From the NCBI GenBank assembly GCA_013815795.1, contig JACDFK010000008.1, forward strand, positions 1-32,258: a stretch of 32,258 nucleotides of DNA. Reading direction: 5' to 3'. Both the position numbers and the translations under genes were made by a program. The stretch is from Candidatus Babelota bacterium. Its GTDB lineage: Bacteria; Babelota; Babeliae; Babelales; Babelaceae. Position 1 is the stretch's first letter; each line of letters begins with the position of its first letter. Under the pieces are notes generated by a model. That model did not search any database. It saw nothing but the letters and a program-made list of their open reading frames with translations, and had not been told where the DNA came from. Of this stretch, positions 9,897-28,887 are shown in pieces.

Positions 9897-10529
9897 ATGA
9901 AAAAACTGATAATAGCAGGCCTTATGGGCCTTTGTGTGGGTCCAGCATCTCTTTCTGCAAGCAGCAGAACGGAGGGAAGAATCGTTAAAGCGATTTACAG
10001 ACAAGATAATCAAAAGGTTGAGCAGTTACTTCGAAAACGTGGCTATCTTGAAAAATCGGTAAAAGAAAGATTTTTAAAGGCAGCTCAACAGTTTTCGGAA
10101 GACTATAAAGAAAAAAATACTATTTTGAAAAGTACTCCTGATCTTGCTGCAACTGTTATAGGTGTGACTTCATTGGCTCTAGCTGCTTATGGGTTTTACC
10201 CTGAACTAAGCGCACTCGCACGAGGATTGCAGTATAGTGCTCAATGGTATCTGGAGCCCGATGACATAAAAGGTTCAAGCGTGGGTAAAAAATTTGACGG
10301 TCTTGGAGCCGCTCTTACACCTGCAAAGAGTGCTACCGATAGTTTTTCAAGAGAAGCAGTGCGGGTTTTTGGTTCGATGGCACTGTTTATTGGTGGAGTT
10401 GTTTCACTCAAATATGGCTTACATCGCACTGTAGGAATTAGACGTTTTAAAAATGCACGAGTAATCGAAGAGCTGGTTGATGCGACTGCAGAAGTAGGTA
10501 GTTTTGATCTGAATGTTCGACGAGATTGA
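9897..10529 (+). CDS. Array member 1 (divergent): exported protein
   Basis: MKKLIIAGLMGLCVGPASLSASS signal; VKAIYRQDNQKVEQLLRKRGYLEKSVKERFLKAAQ matches the family core; ends RRFKNARVIEELV. ATG at 9897 is better than the track TTG at 9891. Confidence 0.75.
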   Translation: MKKLIIAGLMGLCVGPASLSASSRTEGRIVKAIYRQDNQKVEQLLRKRGYLEKSVKERFLKAAQQFSEDYKEKNTILKSTPDLAATVIGVTSLALAAYGFYPELSALARGLQYSAQWYLEPDDIKGSSVGKKFDGLGAALTPAKSATDSFSREAVRVFGSMALFIGGVVSLKYGLHRTVGIRRFKNARVIEELVDATAEVGSFDLNVRRD

Positions 10530-10658
10530 TACTATTTTTAGAGAACTATTTCTCTGATAAATATAAGTAGATAAAAATAAAATTTTTATAAATGCAATAG
10601 AAAGTAGTAATGGTTATTATTTTAGACTAAAGCCATTATGTTAACAGTAAGGAAATGT

Positions 10659-11486
10659 ATGAAATTATATATAGTGAGTGTTTTACTTCTAGTGAGTACT
10701 ACCCTCTATAGCATGGAAAATCCGATTGAAACAGGTCAATTAAAAACGCGTCAAGAGCGCCTTATTGAAGCTATTAATGATGGCGAGGTATTTACCGTTA
10801 AAAAGTATTTGGCAAAAATGGGCGATACGATTACCAAAGAGGAAAAAAGTGCACTTATAGAGGTTGCTCAAGAAGCACTTAATCGTTCTAGAGAAAATGT
10901 TTCCTTGAAAAAGAGTACGTGGGATCTTGCAAAATTTGTGTCCTGTACGGCTGTAGCGGCAGCCGCAGGAGGCTTTCTTTATAACTGTTATAAACGCGTA
11001 ACAGCATCTGCCGATATAGTAGATCAGAAGTTTACTCTTAAAAGAGAGAAAGATCTGGAAGTATCACGAGAGTCAGTCCGCTTATTAGCTGCTTCTAAAC
11101 AACGACGTCCGACCGAGGCGGCAGTTGAGCGTTGTGCTAAAGAAGCGGTGTCAAAAAAACTTTTTACTGCTGAGGATAGAACTAACACTTTTAATGGCCT
11201 TTTTAATTCACCGGCAACTCGTAACATAGCTCATGGTGTTCTAGGTATTAGAGATCAGGTGTACGATGCTAAATATAGAAAAAAACAGAACAAATTAACT
11301 GAAAAAAGCATGTTAAAATTTATGGGTGGTTGGACAGGTGGTCTTCTTTCTTTTTATATTGGTTGGAAAGCATGTAAAGCCAGTTATTCTGCATTTTTCT
11401 GTCCTGTAGCACAAGCAAAAGTTGCACAGGCGTTTGAAATTAAACGAGTATTGCAGCTTGTAAAAATACATAGCGACGTCCTTTAA
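10659..11486 (+). CDS. Array member 2 (divergent, enlarged loop): exported protein
   Basis: MKLYIVSVLLLVSTTLYSMEN signal; 'RLIEAINDGEVFTVKKYLAKMGDTITKEEKSALIEVAQEALNRSRENVSLKKSTWDLAKF' matches the core; longer region between hydrophobic segments. Confidence 0.72.
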   Translation: MKLYIVSVLLLVSTTLYSMENPIETGQLKTRQERLIEAINDGEVFTVKKYLAKMGDTITKEEKSALIEVAQEALNRSRENVSLKKSTWDLAKFVSCTAVAAAAGGFLYNCYKRVTASADIVDQKFTLKREKDLEVSRESVRLLAASKQRRPTEAAVERCAKEAVSKKLFTAEDRTNTFNGLFNSPATRNIAHGVLGIRDQVYDAKYRKKQNKLTEKSMLKFMGGWTGGLLSFYIGWKACKASYSAFFCPVAQAKVAQAFEIKRVLQLVKIHSDVL

Positions 11487-11889
11487 GTAAATTTTTAGTG
11501 TGGTGTTTTTTAGCCACCTGTAGGATGAAACGTTTTTAGAGACTATAACAAAAAATATAAGTAACTAATGCTTTGTAAAATCGTAAAGTCAGGTTGAGCT
11601 GTATTTTTAAGGTAAGAATGCGTGTTAATACTTACACTAGTGGTGTTATGGATAACAGTACCGCATAAGAGCGATTGATTCTTAGTTTAACTATAGTCAA
11701 AAATTTAATTTTTAGGTGTTCTGCGCAGATGCAGCGTTTTATTTTTTCTTTTCGAGAACTCCAAGATAGTTGGAAGATATGTGGTTGTTATCTAGAGACT
11801 ATGGAGAGGTTTTTTGAATACTGCTCTTTATGAGCCCGTTATGATATATGTTAGAAATAGATGGTATTTAAAGTAATAGAGGAACTCGT

Positions 11890-12465
11890 ATGATGAGAAG
11901 CTATAGAATAATGATAGGTAGTATGCTTATTGTGGCGACTTCAGCGAATATGAATGCTGGAAAGGATATTGATAGAAGTGAACGCCAATTGAGGGCTGCA
12001 ATTAGTGCAACTGATCTAGAGCAGGTAAAAATTCTTTCACAAAAAAAGGGAATGATTACTGCTGAAAATAAGGAGCGTTTAGTAGATGCAGCTGAAGAAA
12101 AGGTTGAATTTTATGAGGATAATTTCTCAATTATAAAGAGCAAAAGAGATTTAGCGACCTTTGTAGCTGGTATAGGAATCACCATAGGAAGTGTCTGTTT
12201 ATCAGGATTAGGTCTCTATTGGAGTTTTGATGGAAGCAAGTCTCACGCTAATGAAAACTATATGGAGACACGTAGGCGTGAGCGACGAAATCCACTAGCT
12301 ATGATAGCGCCTTTAGTAGGGTTTTATGCTTCATTGATAGGACTTGGCATTGCAATTAGAGGTTATAGATGCACCTCTGCTTCTTACTATCTTAAAAGAG
12401 CAGAAGATATACAAGAGTTTATCGAAAAGGTACCCGTTTTTTCTACAGAAACAGCAGTTGTTTAG
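11890..12465 (+). CDS. Array member 3: exported protein
   Basis: 'LRAAISATDLEQVKILSQKKGMITAENKERLVDAAEEKVEFYEDNFSIIKSKRDLATF' plus RCTSASYYLKRAEDIQEFIEKVPV. Confidence 0.78.
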   Translation: MMRSYRIMIGSMLIVATSANMNAGKDIDRSERQLRAAISATDLEQVKILSQKKGMITAENKERLVDAAEEKVEFYEDNFSIIKSKRDLATFVAGIGITIGSVCLSGLGLYWSFDGSKSHANENYMETRRRERRNPLAMIAPLVGFYASLIGLGIAIRGYRCTSASYYLKRAEDIQEFIEKVPVFSTETAVV

Positions 12466-12924
12466 GAGCCTTTTGAAACGAGTAGTTTACGAAAGTAGGT
12501 AACTCTAAAAGTTCTTTTTTACCAATAGTGAGAGATGATAAGCCATATAAACTTATTTTAATGGTGTTCTAGTAAGGTGCTAGTGCTATCGAATTCTTTA
12601 GACTCTGCCAGTGGGATATCAGGAAAAAGTGCTTGTAATGTATCGGAAATTAAAACCATTACATAATAGTTGTGTGCAGTATGGTAATGTTTTGTAGAAC
12701 ACAGTGATTACCACGTTGTGTTAATCATTTTTTAGTAAGAGCTTATTGTGAAGATACTGAGAAACTGTTTTTTGTCAGGTTTTATAAAAGAGTGTAACTG
12801 CTTTTAACCGGAGATGTGTTAACAGGGGTTGTGTAGTAAGATCTGATTTGAGATACTTAAAATCGTCTAACTATAGATAAATGGTGAAATATAAACTTTT
12901 AATATATGGTATGAAAGGCTTCTT

Positions 12925-13386
12925 ATGATAAAAAGTTCTGCTGTGATAACCGCTGTAGGCGTTTCTTTGGTCTGTGTAAGTTTGTATGCTGAACGCACTC
13001 TAGACAGTTGGTTTTCTGCTATTGAGAAAATCGATGTTGCACGTATCGAAAAGTTGCTAAAACGTGATGGAATTATCAATGCACAGGAGAAAAAAGAACT
13101 TTTAGCTGCTGCAGAAGATGCTGTTGAAGAGTGTGAAAAAAATGTTTCCTTGCTAAAAAGTAAGTCGGATTTGGCTTTATGTGGTACAGGGCTTGGGGTT
13201 ATTTCGTTGGGAGTATTAGTTGGAAGGCCTGCAATTAGTATGGGCTTGATAGGGGCTGGTGTTTACCTTGCATTAAAATCATGGAGATGTCCCTATGCAT
13301 TACGATGCCTTGCCAACGCTGAAGAGATAGAATATATGATTAAGAACGCTCCCTTATCGAGTGAGCATAACGGCGTAAAGTCGTAG
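12925..13386 (+). CDS. Array member 4: exported protein (short-loop form)
   Basis: 'FSAIEKIDVARIEKLLKRDGIINAQEKKELLAAAEDAVEECEKNVSLLKSKSDLAL' and WRCPYALRCLANAEEIEYMIKNAPLSS. Confidence 0.85.
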   Translation: MIKSSAVITAVGVSLVCVSLYAERTLDSWFSAIEKIDVARIEKLLKRDGIINAQEKKELLAAAEDAVEECEKNVSLLKSKSDLALCGTGLGVISLGVLVGRPAISMGLIGAGVYLALKSWRCPYALRCLANAEEIEYMIKNAPLSSEHNGVKS

Positions 13387-13601
13387 TTCAAGAAAGAGGG
13401 CCTTAAAGGTAGCTAAGAGTCATCTTTTCGCTCAGGAGATCTGTAAATTCCTGTGAACTGTGCAAGAGCTGAGATGTGATTAAAGAGAGGGTGTCTGTTG
13501 AATCCGAACTAGTATTTTTATATGCGTTATATAATAAGGTAAAAAAAATCAATAAGATTGGTGATAGTTAATATTTTATAAGAGTACATGAAAGGATTTA
13601 T

Positions 13602-14060
13602 ATGATCAAAAGTTCGGTTGTTATAACGGCTTTAACTGTTTTATTAGTGCCGGCATCTGTATATGCAGGGCGAACAAATAACAGACTACTTTCTGCTGTA
13701 GAACACAGTGATGCAGCACGCGTAGAAAAGTTGTTAAAACGAGAAGGTATTTTCGATGAGAAATATAAAAAGAAGTTATTGAAAGTCGCTCAGGAATCGG
13801 TTGAAGAATCTGAAAAATGGGCTTCATTATTAAAAAGTAAGTGGGAGATTACCGAATACGTTTTGGGCGCTGGAATTGCAACTGCAGGTATTATAAATAC
13901 TAATTCAATGCTTAAGATTGCCGGTGTTCTAACAGGTGCTTATCTTTTATTAAAGCCTTACCAACGCCATACTGCAACACGTCGGCTTGAAAACGCTGAA
14001 GATATAGAAGAGATGATTAAGAATGCTCCTGTGTCTGCAGAAGCTAGCGATACAAAGTAG
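13602..14060 (+). CDS. Array member 5: exported protein (short-loop form)
   Basis: MIKSSVVITALTVLLVPASVYAG signal; LLSAVEHSDAARVEKLLKREGIFDEKYKKKLLKVAQESVEESEKWASLLKSKWE; ENAEDIEEMIKNAPVS. Confidence 0.85.
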   Translation: MIKSSVVITALTVLLVPASVYAGRTNNRLLSAVEHSDAARVEKLLKREGIFDEKYKKKLLKVAQESVEESEKWASLLKSKWEITEYVLGAGIATAGIINTNSMLKIAGVLTGAYLLLKPYQRHTATRRLENAEDIEEMIKNAPVSAEASDTK

Positions 14061-14063
14061 TAT

Positions 14064-14118
14064 ATTTAGCACTAAAGCCGGTTAGAAACCTATATAAAAA
14101 TCGGCTTTAGTGCTAAAT
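14064..14118 (+). terminator. Strong inverted repeat after array member 5, putative terminator
   Basis: Perfect 17-bp arms ATTTAGCACTAAAGCCG (14064-14080) / CGGCTTTAGTGCTAAAT (14102-14118), 21-nt loop. Confidence 0.6.
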
Positions 14119-14283
14119 TTAATGTGTAAAATCATAGTGATAAGAATACTTACATACGTGGTTTTGCAAAAAACTCGGTACCGTTAAGTAGGTAAAGATT
14201 GTTAGTTTACTGTACTTAGAGTACTAAAGATGCAAGAAAACATATGCCTGAAAAGTTGCAAAAGAGCTCAGTGAAGGACTAGT

Positions 14284-14790
14284 GTGATGAAATGTTCTGT
14301 GCTGATAAGCACTTTATTTCTTTCTTTGACCTCTACATGCGTAGAGGCACGGCGCGATATTGATAGATTAGTCTCTGCTATCGAAGAAATCGATCTAGTT
14401 CTTGTTAAAAAATTACTCAAACGAGAAGGTTTTTCTGATGAAAAACAGAAAAAAGAGCTCGTAGGAATTGCAGAAGATATAGTTGAAGAGTGTGAAAAAA
14501 ATGTTTCTTTACTAAGGAGTAAGCAGGATTTTGCTCTCTGTGCTTGCGGGATCGCGTGCGCTGCTTTTGGTATCTTTTCACCAATTTTGAAATATAAAAA
14601 AAACTTGGCCAAGATACTTAGTAAAGAAGCGGATCGCTTGCTGCGGTTTTGTTTGATAGCGACGGGTGTGTATATTTCACTAAAATCCTTGAGTTGTCCT
14701 GCTGCCTCACGTGTGCTTGAAGATGCGCAAGATATAGAAGATATGCTGAGGAATGCATGTGTGCTTAGTAAGCATACCTGCGAAAGCTAG
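14284..14790 (+). CDS. Array member 6: exported protein
   Basis: 'LVSAIEEIDLVLVKKLLKREGFSDEKQKKELVGIAEDIVEECEKNVSLLRSKQDFAL' and LSCPAASRVLEDAQDIEDMLRNA. Confidence 0.85.
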   Translation: MMKCSVLISTLFLSLTSTCVEARRDIDRLVSAIEEIDLVLVKKLLKREGFSDEKQKKELVGIAEDIVEECEKNVSLLRSKQDFALCACGIACAAFGIFSPILKYKKNLAKILSKEADRLLRFCLIATGVYISLKSLSCPAASRVLEDAQDIEDMLRNACVLSKHTCES

Positions 14791-14935
14791 GGGCATTCCG
14801 GTGCAAAGCTTTTTAAAAGGTCGTGTAAAAACTATTTTTTATCTAGGGTTGTGTGTAAAACACTTAGAAGGAAGAGGTAGATTGAGTAAAGTAGTCTTAC
14901 AGATGATTAAAAAGAGTATTAGTTAGGAGTAGCGT

Positions 14936-14981
14936 GATAAAATATATAATGGCAACTAGATAAAATATATAATGGCAACTA
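14936..14981. repeat. Perfect 23-bp tandem duplication spanning the start of array member 7
   Basis: GATAAAATATATAATGGCAACTA at 14936-14958 and again at 14959-14981. Confidence 0.95.
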
Positions 14982-15535
14982 TATGGTGTATTTTACTAAT
15001 TCCTGTAAGTATATATGCGCGGTCTGAGGAAAATAAAAAAGATGAGACATTGATTTCTGCTATTGAAAGCGGCACTGTAAAGCTCGTTGAGAAATTGTTG
15101 ATTGGTGAAGGTATTGTTGACGAAAAATACAAAAATCTTTTGTTAGATATAGCGCATGGTCGAGTAGAGCATTATGAGAATGTTATTTCTGAAGTATCAA
15201 GAGTACACGATTTAAGAAAATTTCTATGGGGGGCTCGTGTTGGAACTGTAGCAAGCATCGCAGGCACAGTAGTTGCTTTAATTTCACATAAAGATACAGA
15301 ACAGCACGTAGTACCTTTTTCCGAAGATAGAGTTCGAATCGGTGCTTTAAGTACAACATTAGTAGCAATGATCTGTACGACTTATTGTATTTCTAGTTTA
15401 TTGAACGATGTAGTCGTATCAGCTGTGAATCAGAAGGTTTTACGCAGCAGTCGTGTTATGCTTAAAGATGCACGCGAAATAGAAGATTTAATTAGAAACG
15501 CACCTGTATCTACTAAAGACAATGATTTAAAATAG
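14972..15535 (+). CDS. Array member 7: exported protein with disrupted N-terminus
   Basis: MATIWCILLIPVSIYARSEENKKDETLISAIESGTVKLVEKLLIGEGIVDEKYKNLLLDIAHGRVEHYENVISEV...; family C-terminus DAREIEDLIRNAPVSTKDNDLK. Confidence 0.75.
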   Translation: MATIWCILLIPVSIYARSEENKKDETLISAIESGTVKLVEKLLIGEGIVDEKYKNLLLDIAHGRVEHYENVISEVSRVHDLRKFLWGARVGTVASIAGTVVALISHKDTEQHVVPFSEDRVRIGALSTTLVAMICTTYCISSLLNDVVVSAVNQKVLRSSRVMLKDAREIEDLIRNAPVSTKDNDLK

Positions 15536-15664
15536 TATCGAAAATGGTGTTTTTGATACAGTGGTAGAGGACCAATTTTGCTTACGTCTTTGTGTAAGTA
15601 AGATTGAGAAAAAAGACGGAAAAATTTAGATAAACGATTACCCATACAATACGTAAGGATTATA

Positions 15665-16216
15665 ATGATGAAAAAATATTTACTACTAAGTGTAGCGTGT
15701 CTTTCAGTGGTTTCTACAGGTATACATGCAGGACGTGAAAGAAATAAAAAAGTTACTCTTGATGAGGCTATTGAAAATGTAAACCTCAAGCTTGTTCAAA
15801 AGCTCTTAAAGCGAGAAGGTATTGCTGAAGAAACCCGCAAAAAGCTGCTTTTAGAAACTGCAGAGGATATAGTTGAGGAGTGTGAAGAACGCGTTTCTTT
15901 GGTAAAAAGTGGTTGGGATTGTGCGAGATTTGGCTGGTGGTCAACCTGGACGGGCCTTGGAGTAGCAGCTTGTGCTTTCGGAACTGCAGTGGCTTTAACG
16001 CCGAAGGGGAGAGAAGACAATTCTGATTACCTGGAGACTAAGAAATTAGCATTAGGTGGTGCGGGAATAGGGGCATTATGGACGCTTTTGGGTGGTTATT
16101 TTCTGTCTAATGCATGGAAATGTCCTACTGCATTACGACGTGTAGAAATTGCTCGTAAGATAGAAGATTTAATTAGAAATGCTCCTGTATCTAGTGAAAA
16201 CAGTGATTTGAAATAG
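15665..16216 (+). CDS. Array member 8: exported protein
   Basis: Canonical family sequence; nearly identical N-terminal half to the next gene. Confidence 0.9.
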   Translation: MMKKYLLLSVACLSVVSTGIHAGRERNKKVTLDEAIENVNLKLVQKLLKREGIAEETRKKLLLETAEDIVEECEERVSLVKSGWDCARFGWWSTWTGLGVAACAFGTAVALTPKGREDNSDYLETKKLALGGAGIGALWTLLGGYFLSNAWKCPTALRRVEIARKIEDLIRNAPVSSENSDLK

Positions 16217-16345
16217 TATCGAAAATGGTGTTTTTGATATAGTGGGAGAGGACAGGTTTTGCTTACGGTTTTGTGTAAGTAAGATTGAGAGAAAAGACGG
16301 AAAAATTTAGATAAACGATTACCCATACAATACGTAAGGATTAGA

Positions 16346-16897
16346 ATGATGAAAAAATATTTACTACTCAGTGTAGCGTGTCTTTCAGTGGTTTCTACAG
16401 GTATACATGCAGGACGTGAAGGAAATAAAAAAATTACTCTTGATGCGGCTATTGAAAATGTAGATCTGAAGCTTGTTCAAAAGCTCTTAAAGAGAGAAGG
16501 TATGGCTGAAAAAACGCGAAAAAAGCTGCTTTTAGAAACCGCAGAAGATATAGTTGAAGAGTGTGAAGAACGCGTTTCTTTGGTAAGAAGTGGTTGGGAT
16601 TGTGCGAGATTTGGCTGGTGGTCAACCTGGACGGGCCTTGGAGTAGCAGCTTGTGCTTTCGGGGCTGCAGTGGCTTTAACGCCTAAGGGGATAGAAACGG
16701 ATTTTGAGTACCAGCAGAAAAAGAAATTAGCATTAGGTGGTGCTGTAATAGGGGTATTATGGACGCTTCCTGGTGTTTACTATCTTGTACAGGCATGGAA
16801 ATGTCCTACTGCATTACGCCGTGTAGAAACTGCTCGTAAGATAGAAGATTCAATTAGAAATGCTCCTGTATCTAGTGAAGACAGTGATTTGAAATAG
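16346..16897 (+). CDS. Array member 9: exported protein (recent duplicate of member 8)
   Basis: 183 aa, colinear with member 8; the upstream about 130 bp is also nearly identical. Confidence 0.9.
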   Translation: MMKKYLLLSVACLSVVSTGIHAGREGNKKITLDAAIENVDLKLVQKLLKREGMAEKTRKKLLLETAEDIVEECEERVSLVRSGWDCARFGWWSTWTGLGVAACAFGAAVALTPKGIETDFEYQQKKKLALGGAVIGVLWTLPGVYYLVQAWKCPTALRRVETARKIEDSIRNAPVSSEDSDLK

Positions 16898-17027
16898 TAT
16901 CGAAAATGGTGTTTTTGATACAGTGGGAGAGGACCGGTTTCGCTTACGGCTTTGTGTAAACATAATAGATAGAAAATAGATGGTATAAGTCAGAAAACAA
17001 TTAACTATACTATACGTAAGGATTATA

Positions 17028-17597
17028 ATGATGAAAAGATATTTACTACTAAGTTTTGTGTGTCTTTCTGCAGTTCCAACTTGTATGCAGGCACGTTCCG
17101 AAAAAAGTAAGAATGATGCCTTAGTTTCTGCTATAGAAAACGTAGAGGTGAAGCTTGTTGAAAAGTTACTAAAGCGCGAAGGTATTGCTGACAACGGGCG
17201 TAAGAAATTATTGTTAGAAGCGGCCGAAGATGCAGCTGAAAGGTCTGAAGAAAATATTTCTTTGTTAAGAAACGGTTGGGATTGTGCACGATTTGCTGGA
17301 TGGACTGCATGGTCAGGCTTTGGAGCCTTTACTTGTCTTACGGGAACAGTACTAGCTTTAGCACCAGTGAAAGATAAGAATAAAAGAGAAATACCTTTTT
17401 TGGAAGATCAGACCCGCATGGGATTTTCAGTGTTGGGCGTTTTTGCGGCATTATGTACGGTCCCCGGTATCTATTATCTTAAAAAAGCCTGGAAATGTCC
17501 TCATGCATCGCGTCGCTTAGAGAGTGCTCGTATGATAGAGGATTTGATTAAGAAAGCACCTTTGTCTACTGAGAACAAAGATTTAAATATTCTATAA
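17028..17597 (+). CDS. Array member 10: exported protein
   Basis: 'LVSAIENVEVKLVEKLLKREGIADNGRKKLLLEAAEDAAERSEENISLLRNGWDCARF' ... 'AWKCPHASRRLESARMIEDLIKKAPLS'. Confidence 0.9.
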   Translation: MMKRYLLLSFVCLSAVPTCMQARSEKSKNDALVSAIENVEVKLVEKLLKREGIADNGRKKLLLEAAEDAAERSEENISLLRNGWDCARFAGWTAWSGFGAFTCLTGTVLALAPVKDKNKREIPFLEDQTRMGFSVLGVFAALCTVPGIYYLKKAWKCPHASRRLESARMIEDLIKKAPLSTENKDLNIL

Positions 17598-17719
17598 ATG
17601 ATTCTCTTTGATACATCCTGGTAAAAAGGTTTAGTTTTTGCTTTTAGGGAAAGTATTGAGATATAAATGAATAAGATTAAAAAAGTTGAACAAAACATTA
17701 CACAGAGTTAAGGATTATA

Positions 17720-18376
17720 ATGATGAAAAAATATATAGCACTAGGATTGTTGTCTGTTTTTACGATCGCTTCTTCAGTGCAGGCTGGTAAAAAAAATACG
17801 GTAGGTTCTACATTTGAAAGTGTTACATCGAACGTCGCGGAAAAATTTCACCTACTTGTTTCAACAGTGATGCCGTCGCGGTCTGAAAAACTTAAAAAAG
17901 ATACGTTAATTTCTGCAGTTGAAGACACTAATGTCAAGCTCGTTGAAAAATTTCTCAAACGTGAAGGCATTGCCGATGAAAACAGTAAAAAGCTCCTTTT
18001 AGAAACGGCAGAAGATGTAGTTGAGCAGCGTGAAGAGAGCGTTTCATTGCTAAGAAGCGGATGGGATTGTGCGAGGTTTGCAGGATGGTCAACATGGATT
18101 GGTCTTGGATCCTTTATGTGTCTTGCGGGAACAGTATTCGCTGTAGTGCCACAAGAGGAGAGAAACGGAGAAGAGATACCTTTTTCGAAAGATATTGAGC
18201 GTAAAGCTGCTGTAGGGGTTGGACTGTTAGGAGCACTCTGTACGGTGCCTGGTCTTTATTATCTTATAAAGGCATGGAAATGTCCTACTGCATCAACTCG
18301 CTTAGAAAGCGCTCGCACCATAGAAAATTTAATTAAGAAAGCATCTTTATCTACTAAAGAAACTGATTTACAGTAA
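17720..18376 (+). CDS. Array member 11: exported protein with N-terminal insertion
   Basis: Extra segment KKNTVGSTFESVTSNVAEKFHLLVSTVMP between the signal peptide and the family core; ends AWKCPTASTRLESARTIENLIKKASLS. Confidence 0.88.
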   Translation: MMKKYIALGLLSVFTIASSVQAGKKNTVGSTFESVTSNVAEKFHLLVSTVMPSRSEKLKKDTLISAVEDTNVKLVEKFLKREGIADENSKKLLLETAEDVVEQREESVSLLRSGWDCARFAGWSTWIGLGSFMCLAGTVFAVVPQEERNGEEIPFSKDIERKAAVGVGLLGALCTVPGLYYLIKAWKCPTASTRLESARTIENLIKKASLSTKETDLQ

Positions 18377-18402
18377 AATACAAACGATTATTATGTGTTA
18401 AT

Positions 18403-18428
18403 TCGCTACCAAAACGTTTTGGTAGCGA
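18403..18428. terminator. Perfect 26-bp palindrome downstream of array member 11
   Basis: TCGCTACCAAAACGTTTTGGTAGCGA is its own reverse complement; lies 27 bp after the stop codon. No clear T-run, so a terminator role is tentative. Confidence 0.45.
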
Positions 18429-18503
18429 TTGTGTACAAAGTGTAGTAGATAAGAGGGGGATTTGAGAAGGCCCCAAAACGATTGAACACAGGTAAGGATT
18501 AGA

Positions 18504-19037
18504 ATGATAAAAAAATATTTACTACTAAGTTTTGTGTCGCTTTGTATAGTTCCAGTAGGTATGCAGGCAAAACCTAATATGAATAGAAAGGCTTCCCTTG
18601 ACGTGGCTATTGAAAACGTAGATGTGAAGCTTGTTGAAAAGTTTTTGAAACGCGAAGGCATTGTTGATGAAAATAACAAAAAGCTCCTAGTAGAAACAGC
18701 GCAAGATGTAGTGGATCAGTGCGAAGAACGCGTTTCTTTGTTAAAAAGTGGCTGGGATTGTGCGAGATTTGGATGGTGGTCAGCCTGGATTGGTTGTGGA
18801 ACTGTGTTTTGTATTTCCGGATTAAGATATCGTGTTTTAAAATTTAATGATAAGGAAATTAAGAAAAAACTGGGATTTATTATTGCAGGGGGTGCAGTAT
18901 GCACGGCTACAGGTCTTTACTATCTTTCACAGGCATGGAAATGCCCTACCGCATCATCTCGCCTAGAAAGCGCTCGCATCATAGAAAATTTAATTAAGAA
19001 TGCTCCTTTATCTATCACAGCAACTGATTCACAGTAA
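18504..19037 (+). CDS. Array member 12: exported protein
   Basis: 'VAIENVDVKLVEKFLKREGIVDENNKKLLVETAQDVVDQCEERVSLLKSGWDCARF' ... 'AWKCPTASSRLESARIIENLIKNAPLS'. Confidence 0.9.
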   Translation: MIKKYLLLSFVSLCIVPVGMQAKPNMNRKASLDVAIENVDVKLVEKFLKREGIVDENNKKLLVETAQDVVDQCEERVSLLKSGWDCARFGWWSAWIGCGTVFCISGLRYRVLKFNDKEIKKKLGFIIAGGAVCTATGLYYLSQAWKCPTASSRLESARIIENLIKNAPLSITATDSQ

Positions 19038-19169
19038 GATATAAACGATTATTATGTGATAACGTGCTACAATAAGATTTTGTTTTTGATTGTGTGTAAA
19101 CTGTAGATAGATAGATAAGAGCGGAACTTGAAAAGCCTTCCACATGATTAAAAACAGGTAAGGATTAGA

Positions 19170-19688
19170 ATGATGAAAAAATATTTACTACTAAGTTTTG
19201 TGTCTCTTTGTATAGTTCCAGTATGTATGCAGGCAAAACCTGAGATGAATAGAAAAGCTACCTTTGATGTGGCTATTGAAAACGTCGATGTGAAACTCGT
19301 TGAAAAGTTATTGAAACGAGAAGGCATTGATGATGAAAATAGCAAAAAGCTCCTATTAGAAACAGCGGAAGATGTAGTGGCTCAGTGTGAAGAACGCGTT
19401 TCTTTGTTAAAAAGTGGCTGGGACTGTGCGAGGTTTGCATGGTGGTTAATGTGGATAGGTTGTGGAACTCGGGTTTGTGTTGGGGTATTAGATAGTTTTT
19501 TTAATAGTGGCAGGCTTAAAGGAATTGAAAAACCAGTTGGGTTTTTTACGGCAGGGGTCGGAGTGTGCACTGTTTCTGGTTTTTACTATCTTGTACAGGC
19601 ATGGAAATGTCCTACTGCTTTACGCCGCTTAGAGAATGCTCGTACGATAGAGGATTTAATTAAGAATGCACCTTTATCTACTACCTAA
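19170..19688 (+). CDS. Array member 13: exported protein (close paralog of member 12)
   Basis: Near-identical first about 95 aa to member 12, divergent loop, shared AWKCPTALRRLENARTIEDLIKNAPLS. Confidence 0.9.
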   Translation: MMKKYLLLSFVSLCIVPVCMQAKPEMNRKATFDVAIENVDVKLVEKLLKREGIDDENSKKLLLETAEDVVAQCEERVSLLKSGWDCARFAWWLMWIGCGTRVCVGVLDSFFNSGRLKGIEKPVGFFTAGVGVCTVSGFYYLVQAWKCPTALRRLENARTIEDLIKNAPLSTT

Positions 19689-19842
19689 ACGATTCATAGT
19701 ACTATCGTAAGGAACGGTTCTTGAGAAAAAAGTGACAGAGCTTTGTAGTACGAAAAATCATTTTTAATACATTAAAAAAAGAGTCGTAGCAAATTTAAAA
19801 TTAGGTACATTGATTACCATGTCATACTCGAAAGAAATTATA

Positions 19843-20388
19843 ATGCTTATAAAAACTGTCAGATTATTAACTCTTTTTTCTGCTTTTACACTTGCTGGAA
19901 TACTACAAGCAGTTGATGAGAAAGATACTTTGAGTTTCCCTATTGAAAACGTTGATCTGAAGCTTACAAAGAAAGAACTACAGCGCGAAGAAATTGTTGA
20001 CCAAAATCGCCAAAATTTACTTTTTAAAGCGGCGAAGAGTTCTGTAGAACACTGTAAAGAGAGGATTTCTCTCTTGAAAAGCGGTCGCGATTGTGCGAGA
20101 TTTGCGTGGTGGACGTCATGGTCAGGCCTGGGAACTGGAGCCACTCTATGGATAGTAGGCAAAGCTTTGTCTCCCCTGATCAAAAGTAATGGTCGTGATA
20201 CTAGCAAACATATTAAAGCTGCTGTTTTGTTTGGATCGATCGGGGCATTGTGTACAGCTCCTGGTGTTTTTTATCTTGCAAAAGCGTGGAAATGTCCTAC
20301 TGCGTTACGGCGTTTTGAGGATGCATGTGCAATAGAAGCTTTACTTAAAAAGGCTTTTTTCTCAAGTGAAAGAGGCGATTCTCAGTAG
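19843..20388 (+). CDS. Array member 14: exported protein
   Basis: Start chosen at MLIKTVRLLTLFSAFTLAGILQA (19843), aligned with paralog starts; core degenerate (KLTKKELQREEI) but AWKCPTALRRFEDACAIEALLKKA conserved. Confidence 0.82.
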   Translation: MLIKTVRLLTLFSAFTLAGILQAVDEKDTLSFPIENVDLKLTKKELQREEIVDQNRQNLLFKAAKSSVEHCKERISLLKSGRDCARFAWWTSWSGLGTGATLWIVGKALSPLIKSNGRDTSKHIKAAVLFGSIGALCTAPGVFYLAKAWKCPTALRRFEDACAIEALLKKAFFSSERGDSQ

Positions 20389-20540
20389 TATAAAAAATTA
20401 TTTCTCGATAAAAATGATGAGAATCGTATGCACACTACATAGCTCTCTACATAACGGGAGAGTAGTGTACGTAAAGTGTAATATCAAGAAAAATTACTTA
20501 TATACGTATCAACCAGAGAGATGTATGTTAAAAAAAAATT

Positions 20541-21038
20541 ATGAAAGCAACTCTTGTGTGTATGGTTGTCCTTTCGGTAGATCTCCAAGCTGTTCACGAT
20601 AAAGATCCAGTGATTTTAGCTCTTCAAGACGTGGCTGTGAAGCTCGTTAAAAAGCTTGTGAAAAGCGGAAATTTTGATAAAAAGCGTAAAAAAGTATCAT
20701 TAAAAGCTGCACAAGGTTTGGTTAGACAGTGTAAAAATCGCGTTATAGCGTTAGAAGTTGGCAGAGATTATGCATGGTCTACCTGGTTGAGCTTGGGAAC
20801 TGTCGCTACTTTTCTTGGCATACATGGTACTTTATTGGTAAATAAAAATACTAGAACAAGAGATGCTTTATATTTGGCAGTAGGAGCTGTATCATTTACG
20901 CTCTCTTGGGCCTGTTATTTAAAACATCCTTTAGCTTTCAATCGCCTGGAAAATGCTTGTAAAATTGAAGATTTGATTAAAAATATTCCCTTGAGTGCTG
21001 TAAAAAATGGGGAAAAGAGTGAGGAATATGTAGTATAG
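20541..21038 (+). CDS. Array member 15: exported protein with atypical start region
   Basis: MKATLVCMVVLSVDLQAVHDKDPVILALQDVAVKLVKKLVKSGNFDKKRKKVSLKAAQGLVRQCKNRV...; ends RLENACKIEDLIKNIPLS. Confidence 0.78.
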   Translation: MKATLVCMVVLSVDLQAVHDKDPVILALQDVAVKLVKKLVKSGNFDKKRKKVSLKAAQGLVRQCKNRVIALEVGRDYAWSTWLSLGTVATFLGIHGTLLVNKNTRTRDALYLAVGAVSFTLSWACYLKHPLAFNRLENACKIEDLIKNIPLSAVKNGEKSEEYVV

Positions 21039-21065
21039 TAATATTTTATCCAATAAGCATATCGG

Positions 21066-21236
21066 TAGAAGAGGCATTGGTAATTTCGGGGTTGTGCCTT
21101 TTGGTACCCGGTCTTTATAAAACTTTTCAAGCATAAAAATGTTCTCAAGCGCTTGAGCGTTTTAAGCCGTCTGAAATAACTGAAGGATATGGTTAAAAGT
21201 GCTCCTGTATGGAATGAGGATTCTCTTCTTAACTAG
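21066..21236 (+). pseudogene. C-terminal remnant of an array paralog
   Basis: Reads VEEALVISGLCLLVPGLYKTFQA*KCSQALERFKPSEIT then, after a frame change, DMVKSAPVWNEDSLLN*. Homologous to 'EVLIIAGLCFLVPGLYSTFSAWKCPRALNRLKQAEEIEAMVKNAP' of the gene at 22054; TAA replaces the conserved TGG (Trp). Confidence 0.85.
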
Positions 21237-21386
21237 TAAAAATGCTAGAGGTTTTGTTGGAAAATAAGTATAACTATCTGATTTGTCAAAAGGCTTTTTG
21301 AGATGTATAGTTTGAAATAATGAGATGCAAAGCTATAAATGCAGGTAAAAGGTTTATAGTGCGTTTTTATAACTGTAAGGAATAAT

Positions 21387-21863
21387 ATGATACAAAAATC
21401 ATTAAAATGTTATTTTTTAATTATCGCTACTGGTTGCTTGGGTATGAACCTTCGTTGTGATAATGCTTCTTTCATTGATGCGATTGAAAAAAGCGATGTA
21501 ATAGCTGTTAAAAAGCTCTTAAGAAAAGAGGGTATTGCTGACCTCTCGTCTAAAAACCTTTTGTTAGAAAAGGCAGAAGCTGTTATGGATACGTATACTG
21601 CAGGTATTTCTTTATTAAAAAGCAGATGGGATCTGAGAGCTTTTGTTGCAGGTCTTGGACTTTGTGGTGCGGCCTGTTTTGGGTTTACTAATATAGGGGA
21701 CATTGAACTATTAGGAAAGATAGTAAGACTGCCTATTTTGTTATTAGGTCTGTATGTTGCAAGAAATGCTTGGAAGTGTCCTGCTGCAGTGAGTTCTTGT
21801 GAAGATGCTCGCGAAATAAAGAATGCGATTAGCACTACAACAGTGCATAGCATAAACGCGTAA
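21387..21863 (+). CDS. Array member 16: exported protein (short-loop form)
   Basis: 'FIDAIEKSDVIAVKKLLRKEGIADLSSKNLLLEKAEAVMDTYTAGISLLKSRWDLRAF' ... AWKCPAAVSSCEDAREIKNAI. Confidence 0.85.
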   Translation: MIQKSLKCYFLIIATGCLGMNLRCDNASFIDAIEKSDVIAVKKLLRKEGIADLSSKNLLLEKAEAVMDTYTAGISLLKSRWDLRAFVAGLGLCGAACFGFTNIGDIELLGKIVRLPILLLGLYVARNAWKCPAAVSSCEDAREIKNAISTTTVHSINA

Positions 21864-22053
21864 TGAGCTGATGATGATTTTTAAAAACTTTTAAAGGTAG
21901 TCTCTTACCTATTTTTTAAAAAGTATGGAAATCAAAAAAGAGTTAAAGGATGTGGGTGAAAAGGACGGTTAATACTTTTGCTAGTAGAGAGTAGTGTGAC
22001 CTTTTGCTTCGCCAAAATACTAGAATGTTAATTCCACCTACTTAAGGATTATT

Positions 22054-22611
22054 ATGATGAAAAAATGTATGGCCCTCCTTTTAGGTGGTGCTCTTATCTC
22101 AGTGAACTGCTTGAAAGGCGATAGTTCTGTGGATATGCTTGTTCGGGCTATTCAAGATAAGGATAGAACAGCGGTTGAAAGATTGCTAAAAAGAAAAAAT
22201 ATCTTAGGCGAGCCTCAGAGAAACCGTGTATGTAAAGCGGCAGAAGGTGTTGTTGTAGACTGTGAAAATAGTGTTGTTTTATTAAAAAGCAGATGGGATG
22301 CTCTGAAATTTGGCTATGGTCTGACGCTCTCTACTGTTGGTACAGCGTTGTGTGGTCTCGGGGCCTTTGCCTTCGCCTTGACCTTTGAAGAAGGTTTTGA
22401 GTATGGTCGTGATCCTGATTGTGAAAACTCTGAAGAGCAGATAGCTGAAGTCTTGATAATCGCAGGCCTTTGCTTTTTAGTACCGGGTCTTTATTCAACC
22501 TTTAGTGCCTGGAAGTGTCCTCGAGCTCTTAACCGTCTTAAACAGGCTGAAGAAATAGAAGCTATGGTTAAAAATGCTCCACAGCTTAAAGAGCATACTA
22601 TCTTGAGTTAA
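22054..22611 (+). CDS. Array member 17: exported protein
   Basis: 'LVRAIQDKDRTAVERLLKRKNILGEPQRNRVCKAAEGVVVDCENSVVLLKSRWDALKF' ... AWKCPRALNRLKQAEEIEAMVKNAP. Confidence 0.87.
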   Translation: MMKKCMALLLGGALISVNCLKGDSSVDMLVRAIQDKDRTAVERLLKRKNILGEPQRNRVCKAAEGVVVDCENSVVLLKSRWDALKFGYGLTLSTVGTALCGLGAFAFALTFEEGFEYGRDPDCENSEEQIAEVLIIAGLCFLVPGLYSTFSAWKCPRALNRLKQAEEIEAMVKNAPQLKEHTILS

Positions 22612-22840
22612 GTTCAGATGGCGGCATGCATATTGTTACAATGAAAGCTGAATAGTTCGCTTCTATAATTGTAACTGTATCTAAAAAAATAAGAGGTTTT
22701 AGAGGTAAAAGCCCGAGAGCTGTTGTATTACTTATTTTCCTGGGTTACAATAAATATGACAATTATTAATAGTTTAGTAGCGTATAGTGTGCGAAAAACT
22801 GAATGAAATTACCTATATAAATTATGAAATAAGGACTATT

Positions 22841-23368
22841 ATGGTTAAAAAATATATGATGATGAGCTTACTTGTAGCTGCTTTTACCCCTCTTATGGTA
22901 CAGTGCAAATTCAACAGTGAACTATTGCTTAGTAAAGTTGAACAAGGAGATCTTGGGAAATTAAAGTTTTATTTACGCGGAGAAAATGGTATTAATGCAG
23001 ATCTCAAGGAATCTTTGAGTACGGCGGCTAAAAATGCCACCGAAAAAGCGTTTGATGCTATCTCATTTAGAGGAAGTTTCTCTGATAGCGCCTCATTTTT
23101 AGGCGGACTTTCTTTAGTAGGCTTGAGTCTCTTAAATTATCGAGCAATAAGTAAAGATAGTAAATCAGGGTTTTCCTATAAGGTGAAAGATACCCATCGG
23201 TATGGGTTTTATGTGATAGGGCTTCTAGGTCTTATTAAAGGGGTAAGCTTCGTGCAAAGAGGATGGAACTGCACAAACGCTCAAAAACGTCTTAAGAATG
23301 CGCAAGCTCTTGAGAGTTATATTAACGCTTTGCCTGTCGTTGAAGATGATATAAAATCAGAACAATAA
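22841..23368 (+). CDS. Array member 18: divergent subfamily, exported protein
   Basis: AAGGACTATT before ATG 22841 (MVKKYMMMSLLVAAFTPLMVQCKF); 'LLLSKVEQGDLGKLKFYLRGENGINADLKESLSTAAKNA'; GWNCTNAQKRLKNAQALESYI replaces AWKCPxA. Confidence 0.78.
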   Translation: MVKKYMMMSLLVAAFTPLMVQCKFNSELLLSKVEQGDLGKLKFYLRGENGINADLKESLSTAAKNATEKAFDAISFRGSFSDSASFLGGLSLVGLSLLNYRAISKDSKSGFSYKVKDTHRYGFYVIGLLGLIKGVSFVQRGWNCTNAQKRLKNAQALESYINALPVVEDDIKSEQ

Positions 23369-23389
23369 GATAGTTTTTTAAGATTGATG

Positions 23390-23425
23390 TCACCTTGTAG
23401 ATCTCTATGCTACAAGGTGATTTTT
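23390..23425 (+). terminator. Rho-independent terminator
   Basis: TCACCTTGTAG (23390-23400) / CTACAAGGTGA (23410-23420) followed by TTTTT. Confidence 0.8.
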
Positions 23426-23782
23426 ATGAAAATCTATGCAGTATACTGAAAAGTTTTGAGCACCTCATGACGGCGGATTTATAGTTTTTTGTTGAGGTAG
23501 TAGAATTTTTCTGTTTTTTTATTGAATTAATTGAGGCTTTTTCCGATCACCTGTAGTTTTAAAAAGCTCAAGGAAGTAGTAGAGGTTAGTTCTACACTTT
23601 CTTACAAAATAGTTATAGGGACGCGGTAAAATCTGAAAATTTAAATTTTTGTCGTGAGTTTTTGCTAAGGAAAAAGACTGATACAGTGTTTCTCCTTAAA
23701 CCAGTAGACATGGTGATTGAAAATAAAATATAACCAAAAGAGCAGTAATCTCTGTATGTGTGAATCGAAAAGGTATTTAAAA

Positions 23783-24433
23783 ATGAATGTATATAAAAAA
23801 TTGGCATTGACTGCCATTATGTGTATGAGTGGGGTAGTGTATTCTTCAGAACTGACTGTCGCTACCGACACAAATGATTCTGTAAAAGCGGTAGAAGAGA
23901 GTGAGAATGCTTCCTCTGAATCAGGAATCGCCGGAACAATGGCAGCTATTGCTCTCTTTGCAATGGTACATGATAAGCTGAAGTATGATCGACTACTTAA
24001 ACAACTCTGTAGGTATATTGAGCAAGGAGATCTTGAGAGGTTGACTTACTCTCTTAGTAATGTGCGTAAAAAAAAGGGGATTAGTAGAGAGATGAAAGAG
24101 ACTTTGCTTTCGGTAGCTGTAAAGGCATGCGATAATGCAGATGAAAATATAACGCTTAGGGGAAGTATAACCGATTGCGCTAAACTCTTAGGGGGTTTTT
24201 CTTTAGTTGGAGGGACAGTAGCATATGCTCATTCTTTATGGAACAAAGATGCTACAACTTTAAGTCTTTCACAAAGAGTCACGTACCATCTTGTAGGTTT
24301 GTATAGCTTGTATAAAGGAGTAAGTTATATAGAAAAAGGATGGAACTGTGCTCATGCTCAAAAGTGTTGTAACAGAGCACACAAGATTGAGACGTTCATT
24401 AAAACGATGAGAATCGATGAAAAACAGGTTTAA
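23783..24433 (+). CDS. Array member 19: divergent subfamily, exported protein
   Basis: MNVYKKLALTAIMCMSGVVYSSE signal; 'YIEQGDLERLTYSLSNVRKKKGISREMKETLLSVAVKACDNADENITLRGSITDCAKLLGGFSLVGG' parallels member 18; GWNCAHAQKCCNRAHKIETFI. Confidence 0.78.
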   Translation: MNVYKKLALTAIMCMSGVVYSSELTVATDTNDSVKAVEESENASSESGIAGTMAAIALFAMVHDKLKYDRLLKQLCRYIEQGDLERLTYSLSNVRKKKGISREMKETLLSVAVKACDNADENITLRGSITDCAKLLGGFSLVGGTVAYAHSLWNKDATTLSLSQRVTYHLVGLYSLYKGVSYIEKGWNCAHAQKCCNRAHKIETFIKTMRIDEKQV

Positions 24434-25458: not shown

Positions 25459-25794
25459 ATGGAAATAAATAAAAAGCTGGCATTGTGTGCCTTTGTTTGT
25501 ATTTCTGGAGGACTCTTTGCTTCAGAACCTACGAGCGATGATCTTTTAACCCGAGCGGCTGAGTTTACGCAAGGCGTTAATGCTGAGCAAAAATTCAGAA
25601 ATAGCCCGCTTGATGAACAGATTGCTGTTGAGATGGAACTCTTTGAAGCTCTTCAAGAATCAGAGTTGCCCGAAAATAGCTCTACAGTACTACAAGCTGG
25701 AATGGAAGTAGAATATGCACAAGATATTCAAAATGATGCGGATGTACTAATAAAAAAAATTAAGTGGCAAAAATACAGTTCTAGGTTCCGTTAA
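25459..25794 (+). CDS. N-terminal part of a frameshifted exported protein gene
   Basis: MEINKKLALCAFVCISGGLFASEPTSDDLLTR... signal; reading frame lost at an A8 tract (25752-25759). See the finding. Confidence 0.65.
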   Translation: MEINKKLALCAFVCISGGLFASEPTSDDLLTRAAEFTQGVNAEQKFRNSPLDEQIAVEMELFEALQESELPENSSTVLQAGMEVEYAQDIQNDADVLIKKIKWQKYSSRFR

Positions 25795-25819
25795 GCCCCC
25801 TCAAATAAGTTTTGGTAAA

Positions 25820-26902
25820 TTGTTTCCTCCTCTTGAAATTGGACTATATAAGAAGGATCTAGTTCATTTATCTTTGACGGCTGCAGATTTAGCAGGAGAT
25901 GTGTTACTCTATAAACATCTTACTAAAAGAAGAGTAGAGACTATTCTGGCTTCACTTAAAAAAGATTATAACGGTTGTATTCGTGCATTAGAACTAAGTC
26001 TGGCCGCTGAGAGAAAACATGAGCTTGCCCAAGGTGAAAAAGGTGGAGATGCCTATTTTATAAAAATGATAGCATGTGCTCCTTTAAAAATATATATATC
26101 TAAAAATCATTATTTAATGGGATCTTTACCTTTCAATAAAGCGGTTTTGATTCCTTTAGTAGCGCGTTGGGGATGGGAAAAGGTAAGTGCTCATCTTCGT
26201 GGCCGTCTTCTTGTGGATTTACCCTATGTAAAGACCGCAGCGCAAGGTATAGGTATCTTTGGAGGTGATGATCCTCAGATGGAAACCAACCGTTTATGGG
26301 CGTTAGGAAAAACGTTTGATAGTGCTTATGAATATGACAAAAAGGGTGATTTAAAACCTGTTAAAGGAGTTTCTCCTCTTTCGCTTTCCTACTGTGTATC
26401 ACGTGTAAGTAACTTTTTTTATCCATCATCGGTAAGGTTAGGTGGTTCTTTAAAGAGCGGTTTACAGTTCTTGAATGATACAATTGGACTTTACATTCCT
26501 AAAGTTTGTTTTTCTAAAGAGGCTGATGTAGTATTTGATTTTTTGGGAATCGGATTTTCAGCACAAGCTTTCGATGCAAGTTTATCAGCAAAATGGCTTG
26601 AATATACGGTACAAGAGCGTTCCACTTTATTACTCTATCTTCGAGAATATAAGGAGCTTTTAGAGTCACCTCAGACTCCCCAAGAAAAACTTTTGAAAAG
26701 TGAACAGAAATTAAGAAATTTTGTTGAAAATGGGCATCAGGATACGTCTTGGTTTCCTATGAGTTTAGCTCAACAGTGGAAAAATTTTCGTTTCATGGGA
26801 GGTAGTACTCTTGGTAGGTATGCAACTACGTGGGTAGTTGGAGTCAGTATGATTAAAGGAGCACTAAATCTTAAGAAACTTTATAATTGGTATTTTGCAT
26901 AA
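25820..26902 (+). CDS. C-terminal part of the same frameshifted gene; function unknown
   Basis: Frame 2 is open from 25754, before any conventional start: KKLSGKNTVLGSVKPPQISFGKLFPPLEIGLYKKDL.... The track start is a TTG at 25820 with no obvious ribosome-binding site. Confidence 0.65.
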   Translation: MFPPLEIGLYKKDLVHLSLTAADLAGDVLLYKHLTKRRVETILASLKKDYNGCIRALELSLAAERKHELAQGEKGGDAYFIKMIACAPLKIYISKNHYLMGSLPFNKAVLIPLVARWGWEKVSAHLRGRLLVDLPYVKTAAQGIGIFGGDDPQMETNRLWALGKTFDSAYEYDKKGDLKPVKGVSPLSLSYCVSRVSNFFYPSSVRLGGSLKSGLQFLNDTIGLYIPKVCFSKEADVVFDFLGIGFSAQAFDASLSAKWLEYTVQERSTLLLYLREYKELLESPQTPQEKLLKSEQKLRNFVENGHQDTSWFPMSLAQQWKNFRFMGGSTLGRYATTWVVGVSMIKGALNLKKLYNWYFA

Positions 26903-27210
26903 TAAAAAAACGGTAAAAATAGAGTGTTAGTAGAGATGTATAGTAAAAGAACATATTTTTTACTGCTTTAAGTACCTAGTTGAACAAAGTTTATGAAAAA
27001 TTTTGTTAGTAAACTGAGGGTTAAAATCAGAATGTGGAAAACAACCCTTTGAAATAAGCGTTCAAAGGTTACTGTGTAGTTGAAGAGAAAAGGCTGCATC
27101 GTAGAGTAGAAAGGTAGAGGTTTGATGAAGATTTGCATGTAAAGCCCTCGGGCAGATCAAGCAAAGAATAGATAAACGAAAATAATAATTAACAGTTGAA
27201 GGATTATAGT

Positions 27211-28827
27211 ATGTTACATAGAACAGTAAAAAAGCGATTTACACTAGGACTTTTAGTTCTTCTGAGCGGCTCTTTTATCCAGGCGGGCGATAATTTTTGG
27301 CAGACCATGGGGGAAGCCGCGTTTGATATGGCCGGCCAGGTAGCAAAAAACGTGAAGCTACAAGAAGGTGTCGAGTTTATGGTAGATGGAACAAAAGCTT
27401 TTGTAAATGGATCGGTAGAGTTTGCAGATCGTAATATTAAGCGTTTGCAAGAGTATAATCTTGAAATGCAACGACAAAAAGATAAAGCTCATAATGATGA
27501 GATGGACCGGATTGATTCTCAGTTAAGAGATCGCGATATACCAGAGGAGTATAAAGCTGAACTTTTAAGACAGAAAGCTGCCTCTACAAAAGCGTATGAA
27601 GCCGAAAAGTTAGCAGGAATTAAAAAAAATGAAGAGTTAGCCGAGTTTGTTAAGAAACAAATGGATAAATCGAGTGACCTACTGTTTAATGCTGGAAAGG
27701 ATTATTTGAAAGCGGGGCAGGAACTTAAAAAAGTGACTGCAATGGCGTATCAACAACGGAAAGCAGAAGAAGAGAAGGCCAAGGTTTATATGGATAGTAT
27801 AGTTAAAAACCCCGGTTTTTTCATAGGGACGTTTGGAGCATGTGTTGCTCTGTACTATGGATTTAAGCATGGGATACAGTATGCGGATGATATGATACGT
27901 CTTCCTCAATTAGCTGAAGAAACATCCTTAATATCTGGACGTCAAAAGTTTGTTAATTGGGTAACCGGTGTTGAACCTCAAGAATCGGCGCTTTCTGATG
28001 TTATTCTTCATGAAACGGTAGCTGAACAGATTAATGAAATAGCTGAGTCTTTAGGCAATATCGTTAAAAACGGATCTATGTTACCAAATATTGTGTTATG
28101 GGGTCCTCCAGGATCTGGGAAGACGATGGTCGCAAAAAGATTAGCACGAAGCTCCGGTCTTGATTATATCTATTTTGCTGCATCTTCTCTAGATCAGTTT
28201 AGTACTGAAGAGGCTGTTAAAAATGTAGTGGAGCTTTTTGAATCTGCAAAGAAAAACAAGAAGAAGCTGATGATCATTATTGATGAAGCTGAAGTTGCTT
28301 TAGTAAAAAGATCACCAGAAACTCCAGAAAAAACCCGTAAAATCCTTACTCAGATATTAACGTATACCGGTACAGAAAGTCGTGATTATATGTTTGTTGC
28401 GATGACCAATAGACCTGAAGATCTTGATGAAGCGATATTAAGTCGTATCGATCATTCTCTTTATATCGGAAATCCAGAATATGAGCAAAGAAAAGCTCTT
28501 GTAGAAATGTACATCGATAAATATCTTGTTAAGGGTCAACATTTACAAAATAAACCAACAGGGTTATGGGACTATTTCTTTACAACTCCTGATCCAGTCG
28601 TAAAAGTCACTGTTGGAGAAGATGTTTTCTGCGATGAACATATAGAGTATCTTACCAAAATCCTTGATGGATTTAATGGTCGTGATATTTCTAAACTTGT
28701 TCTAGGGATGCTTAATGCAGCGTATGCAAAAGAAGATTGTACTCTTACCTGGACTATGGTGGAAAGATTAGTTAAAACCAAGATCATGGAAAAAACTGCT
28801 GGACAAAAAGGATTCATAAGAACCTAA
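27211..28827 (+). CDS. Exported/membrane AAA+ ATPase with coiled-coil, TM and AAA domain; ATAD3-like
   Basis: Signal MLHRTVKKRFTLGLLVLLSGSFIQAG; charged coiled-coil; TM 'FFIGTFGACVALYYGF'; Walker A GPPGSGKT; Walker B KKLMIIIDEAE; sensor 'MTNRPEDLDEAILSRID'; 'MYIDKYLVKG', 'GFNGRDISKLV'. AAGGATTATAGT precedes the ATG. Confidence 0.88.
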   Translation: MLHRTVKKRFTLGLLVLLSGSFIQAGDNFWQTMGEAAFDMAGQVAKNVKLQEGVEFMVDGTKAFVNGSVEFADRNIKRLQEYNLEMQRQKDKAHNDEMDRIDSQLRDRDIPEEYKAELLRQKAASTKAYEAEKLAGIKKNEELAEFVKKQMDKSSDLLFNAGKDYLKAGQELKKVTAMAYQQRKAEEEKAKVYMDSIVKNPGFFIGTFGACVALYYGFKHGIQYADDMIRLPQLAEETSLISGRQKFVNWVTGVEPQESALSDVILHETVAEQINEIAESLGNIVKNGSMLPNIVLWGPPGSGKTMVAKRLARSSGLDYIYFAASSLDQFSTEEAVKNVVELFESAKKNKKKLMIIIDEAEVALVKRSPETPEKTRKILTQILTYTGTESRDYMFVAMTNRPEDLDEAILSRIDHSLYIGNPEYEQRKALVEMYIDKYLVKGQHLQNKPTGLWDYFFTTPDPVVKVTVGEDVFCDEHIEYLTKILDGFNGRDISKLVLGMLNAAYAKEDCTLTWTMVERLVKTKIMEKTAGQKGFIRT

Positions 28828-28853: not shown

Positions 28854-28887
28854 AAAGGGACCGTCTGTATGTACAGGCGGTCCCTTT
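28854..28887 (+). terminator. Putative terminator hairpin after the AAA+ ATPase gene
   Basis: AAAGGGACCGTCTGTA / TACAGGCGGTCCCTTT, 16-bp arms with one G-T pair and a 2-nt gap; short T-run only. Confidence 0.7.

Follow-up and report, generated by a model that had tools for sequence, protein, structure and literature searches.

The window, the whole stretch of 32,258 nucleotides that was analysed (contig JACDFK010000008.1 of a Candidatus Babelota bacterium), carries an ATAD3-like AAA+ ATPase gene preceded by a second, split gene on the same strand (Table 1). The open reading frame of the ATPase is a real gene. In its longest reading it runs from a TTG at 27196 to 28827 on the forward strand (543 residues), but the ATG at 27211 is the likelier start because a GAAGGA sequence precedes it, and residues are numbered here from this ATG. 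The earlier note had chosen the same start and quoted the motifs of the protein; both points held, with GAAGGA ahead of the start and all the motifs present. The GC and GC3 contents of the gene are like those of its neighbours. The hairpin that follows it directly is terminator-like, with a short T tract, and is absent from the list of a simple terminator scan.

Table 1. Features of the ATAD3-like locus, in positions of the window
Feature	Position	Strand	Basis or remark
Partner gene, split	25459..26902	+	ORFs ending 25794 and starting 25820
Shine-Dalgarno-like GAAGGA ahead of ATG 27211	27198..27203	+	sequence read
ATAD3-like AAA+ ATPase gene	27211..28827	+	538 aa from ATG; stop at 28827
Predicted Sec signal peptide, residues about 1-25	27211..27285	+	sequence pattern; ends ..SFIQA/GDNF
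Charged helical, coiled-coil-like region, residues 52-181	27364..27753	+	AlphaFold2 helices 52-106, 112-181; composition
Hydrophobic, probable transmembrane segment, residues 200-221	27808..27873	+	hydrophobic stretch about 196-222; hhalign pairs with ATAD3A TM2 (247-264)
ATAD3-type linker with P.L..E(T/S)S motif	27874..28101	+	linker profile
EETSLISGRQKF in linker, residues 236-247	27916-27951	+	P.L..E(T/S)S motif
AAA+ ATPase domain	28102..28818	+	PF00004 E=6e-25
Walker A GPPGSGKT, residues 298-305	28102-28125	+	AAA domain
Walker B IIIDEAE, residues 355-361	28273-28293	+	AAA domain
Sensor 1 (TN, residues 399-400)	28405-28422	+	AAA domain
Arginine finger R412	28441-28452	+	AAA domain
Sensor-2 block GFNGRD, residues 487-492	28669-28686	+	AAA domain
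Terminator-like hairpin directly 3' of the ATAD3-like gene	28854..28887	+	-27.3 kcal/mol, z=-5.9

The AlphaFold2 model of the window protein displays a helix for the signal, a long stretch of helices, a further helix of membrane type, the linker and the AAA domain, in the same order as the sequence motifs and with pLDDT above 90 across most of the AAA part. Of the 28 family members that were aligned, most have a hydrophobic signal at the N-terminus. The order of coiled coil, single transmembrane segment, ATAD3-like linker and AAA core that had been proposed in the earlier note is thus retained, with the membrane segment itself as an inference, because its hydrophobicity is only moderate to weak (Kyte-Doolittle mean 1.26). 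The catalytic residues are invariant across the family alignment and complete in the window protein, so that ATPase activity is expected, as inferred from the sequence. No M41 zinc protease domain is present: the only Pfam matches are of the AAA type, and the AAA domain is the last part of the protein.

Many members of the family are directly preceded by a second gene, which encodes a protein of 340-730 residues with a signal peptide and is mostly separated from the ATPase gene by a gap of at most 60 bp or overlaps it. An iterated profile found 23 such partner proteins in the neighbourhoods, all of them upstream of ATAD3-like genes. Genome-wide, 24 of 27 partner genes lie directly upstream of ATAD3-like genes; of the remaining three, two match only weakly and one lies at the edge of a contig. 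In the window a frameshift close to A runs (about 25752-25775), which reflects either real decay or an assembly error, splits the partner gene, and the 293 bp between this gene and the AAA gene are longer than the usual gap. No credible Pfam or PDB match was obtained for the partner protein. As a conserved neighbour this Sec-signal gene is established, and it is a new, undescribed element; its function can only be inferred. In genome G004, which we take to be Babela massiliensis, the pair of partner and ATAD3-like genes is duplicated in tandem (L157:6494-12568, forward strand).

Homologues with the same order of parts were found across the Babelota (Dependentiae), bacteria that live obligately inside protist cells. 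An exact match to a published 16S primer pair for Babelota (PMC12172432) agrees with the placement of the genome of the window in this phylum, 48 of whose 101 genomes are matched exactly as well. A profile of the membrane segment and linker, made from bacterial rows only and without the Walker motifs, matches 40 of 101 Babelota genomes from at least 12 family-level groups, often with several copies per genome. Babela massiliensis is among the positives, with three matches, and no match was seen in the genome that we take to be that of Chromulinavorax destructans (G041). Outside the phylum, the same profile gave no matches in samples of 398 Pseudomonadota, 294 Planctomycetota and 345 Bacteroidota genomes, intracellular groups beyond them not being exhaustively covered. 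Scans of viral contigs with ATAD3A and the relative L010 revealed no relatives, the viral fold search gave generic AAA matches only, and the best matches of the plasmid search were FtsH and generic AAA proteins only. A scan of the genome contigs with a generic P-loop pattern was uninformative for the family and yielded only ordinary AAA proteins, which were used as outgroups. The locus is syntenic in bacteria, with gltX upstream, an acylphosphatase gene downstream in G002 and B. massiliensis, and bamA in G002; therefore the ATAD3-like gene is not a eukaryotic contaminant. A recent contaminant was rejected on this synteny and on the phylum-wide presence of homologues.

A truncated paralogue lies on the reverse strand elsewhere in the genome of the window (C20; L002:1501-2457), where the signal is followed directly by the linker and the AAA domain, without coiled coil or transmembrane segment. 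At the DNA level it shares 88% identity with the window gene over 265 bp close to its 3' end, against a protein identity of only 39% in the AAA core; the pattern resembles a gene-conversion mosaic, and the catalytic residues appear lost.

Several lines of evidence tie the family to ATAD3. The human ATAD3A sequence, the sole eukaryotic row used, was validated by its 586 residues, its 355 bits with PF12037 and the published positions of the Walker A lysine (358) and of TM2 (247-264). The window protein is 27% identical to it over 451 residues (140 bits), and L010 39% identical over 327 residues. In a set of 2460 ORFs the bacterial linker profile retrieves human ATAD3A with E=9e-21, whereas the other AAA proteins of the set, about 100 in number, all go unmatched. 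With hhalign, the membrane segment and linker, the best-conserved parts of the family outside the AAA domain, match ATAD3A with a probability of 98.5%, against 0.4% for the FtsH control. An AAA-domain profile made from bacterial rows gives ATAD3A 232.7 bits, within the range of the family (138-301 bits) and some 100 bits higher than the remaining AAA domains, which reach 134 bits at best. The RPGR-type motif, present in 93 of 102 other AAA domains, is missing from all 39 family domains, ATAD3A included.

Evidence that does not depend on this ATAD3A sequence comes from the Pfam model of the ATAD3 N-terminal region (ATAD3_N, PF12037), which matches in ten Babelota genomes, inside family genes and immediately ahead of the AAA domain. 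Two of these matches exceed the curated cut-off, at 42 bits in G016 and at 25.7 bits in G071 with its neighbours; the stronger, that of G016, sits at a contig start. None of 14 control genomes showed a PF12037 match. Neither did the window protein nor any other part of its genome. The earlier note would have taken the lack of a match to this N-terminal model as refuting the kinship; the lack is literally true of the window protein, while the model matches its relatives. Because PF12037 fails on it, the window protein is filed as ATAD3-like and not as ATAD3 proper, that is, as a member of a Babelota-specific branch of ATAD3-type AAA+ ATPases, and we hold its kinship with high confidence.

In the maximum-likelihood tree the family and ATAD3A fall on one side of a branch (support 86/90) that separates them from FtsH and the CDC48-type AAAs, and the window gene lies inside a well-supported clade of its own family (100/99), its nearest rows being all from Babelota. 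The AU test rejects the grouping of ATAD3A with FtsH (p=1.4e-6) and with CDC48-type AAA domains (p=7.1e-7). The firm placement among FtsH or other bacterial AAA clades that would have spoken against the proposal was thus not observed, and the claim of a bacterial relative of ATAD3 bearing a Sec signal is supported by the linker profile, hhalign, the PF12037 matches in relatives, the AAA scores, the AU tests and the loss of RPGR. That the Babelota family belongs to an ATAD3-type clade is very likely, the homology with ATAD3 being strong. Gene transfer from a host, which had also been suggested, was not shown. ATAD3A was placed among the bacterial rows, but in this tree with a single eukaryotic row the AU test does not exclude that it branches as sister to the whole bacterial set (p=0.33); the direction of transfer is therefore open, and an ancient transfer either way remains possible.

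The likeness to ATAD3 (PF12037 plus PF00004) extends from the order of coiled-coil region, transmembrane segment, linker with its (R/E)ETS motif and AAA domain to the absence of the RPGR-type motif in both and to GR in the sensor-2 block. In contrast with ATAD3, the family has a Sec signal where ATAD3 has mitochondrial targeting, the N-terminal half of the window protein is divergent and unrecognised by PF12037, and the Babelota proteins are bacterial, with a co-located partner gene and several paralogues per genome. In the same phylum, the AAA plus C48/Ulp1-like proteins of B. massiliensis (PMC4378268) are likewise signal-bearing AAA proteins, but differ in architecture, and L004, from the genome of the window, scores as an ordinary AAA only. 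The product of this L004 gene (C131; L004:187-2481, forward strand) is a large AAA protein, one region of which looks, by eye, similar to the C48/Ulp1-plus-AAA family of B. massiliensis.

In the mechanism that we propose, the Sec signal would start the export of the N-terminal part, the coiled coil would end in the periplasm and the hydrophobic segment would stop the transfer, leaving the AAA domain to form a hexamer on the cytoplasmic face of the inner membrane. ATP hydrolysis would then pull on or remodel envelope partners and organise the membranes of these obligate intracellular bacteria; the product of the upstream gene would most likely be among these partners, as a substrate or adaptor. 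In ATAD3 the AAA domain lies in the matrix and the coiled coil on the outer side of the inner membrane (PMC13249166, PMC7663417), and by analogy the proposed bacterial topology would be its counterpart. The order of parts in the models of the window protein and of L010 agrees with this topology. The charges flanking the hydrophobic segment, however, favour neither orientation (higher after than before the segment in 10 of 26 members), and the truncated paralogue, in which signal and AAA domain occur without coiled coil or transmembrane segment, is easier to reconcile with export than with a membrane anchor, although it seems to have lost its catalytic residues. Both the placement as an inner-membrane motor with a periplasmic coiled coil and its action in envelope remodelling are inferred; we regard them as the likeliest reading, held with moderate confidence and about as likely to be right as wrong.

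The most serious rival takes the Sec signal as a first step of export, after which the AAA motor would act as an ATAD3 mimic in the host, for instance on mitochondria, where ATP is available. Sec signals are common in Babelota (44% of proteins in C. destructans, PMC6561590), secreted AAA proteins acting in the amoeba have been proposed for B. massiliensis (PMC4378268), other AAA proteins carry a signal without an obvious transmembrane segment (L002, L034), and C. destructans wraps itself in a host mitochondrion. However, according to the paper describing that wrapping, association with mitochondria is a trait of C. destructans alone, and it is precisely this mitochondrion-remodelling species that has no linker match, whereas B. 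massiliensis has three; the simplest mitochondrial version is disfavoured for this reason. The family moreover retains the membrane segment and linker as its best-conserved non-AAA parts. A secreted mimic is held to be clearly less likely than not, and export for another purpose is possible. One of the signal-bearing proteins named above, encoded on the forward strand in genome G019 (L034:292-2181), has two AAA domains and no obvious membrane anchor, and its gene adjoins a second such gene.

The kinship itself could be disputed if the protein were an ordinary membrane AAA of the FtsH or CDC48 type that merely resembles ATAD3. Ordinary searches with the window protein do return the generic PF00004 model and PDB sequence matches led by p97/NVL, and its best fold matches are Ycf2-FtsHi, p97 and FtsH; by fold and by sequence, the best-ranked PDB matches were generic AAA proteins only, with no ATAD3 chain among them. 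With FtsH and the mitochondrial AAA proteases it shares a similar AAA fold and the character of a membrane-anchored AAA+ motor, but it has no M41 domain, a different linker and no RPGR motif, and it is separate in the tree. CDC48, p97 and NVL have two AAA domains and no transmembrane segment, whereas the window protein has one AAA domain and, again, no RPGR. As the linker profile finds only the family and ATAD3A and the AU tests reject the alternative groupings, this explanation is all but excluded; the FtsH-like reading was rejected on the linker profile, the loss of RPGR, the lack of M41 and the AU tests. A recent acquisition from a protist host by the lineage of the window would fit the knowledge of ATAD3 from eukaryotes, the life of Babelota in protists and the host-parasite gene exchange proposed for B. 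massiliensis (PMC4378268). It is contradicted by the spread of the family over at least 12 family-level groups, and the composition of the gene, like that of its neighbours, and its all-Babelota closest rows also speak against it, so that we consider it very unlikely.

In the open-access literature searched, ATAD3 is treated as eukaryotic and its absence from fungi is noted as puzzling; no report of a bacterial ATAD3 family was found in that literature, most subscription papers being outside the search. A bacterial branch that is diverse and has a conserved partner offers an outgroup for ATAD3 and simpler proteins for structural and biochemical work, and poses a testable question on which way the gene moved. 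It is also a candidate membrane or host-interaction system in parasites of protists whose phylum is poorly understood. A bolder reading, which we hold as less likely than not, traces eukaryotic ATAD3 and the Babelota family to a gene that passed long ago between early eukaryotes and intracellular bacteria similar to Babelota, perhaps from the bacterial side. If this were true, a membrane-organising motor of mitochondria would have a living bacterial counterpart that still acts with a bacterial partner across an inner membrane.

Two further features of the window can be mentioned. Nineteen tandem, mutually related ORFs of 150-280 residues occupy positions 9891-24433 of the forward strand. Most of them bear a Sec signal, and an LLKREGI-like motif recurs in many; the six that were scanned gave no credible Pfam match. 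At 2296-3849, also on the forward strand, a WD40 beta-propeller protein of eukaryotic type is encoded, a homologue of which is found near the ATAD3-like gene in G009.
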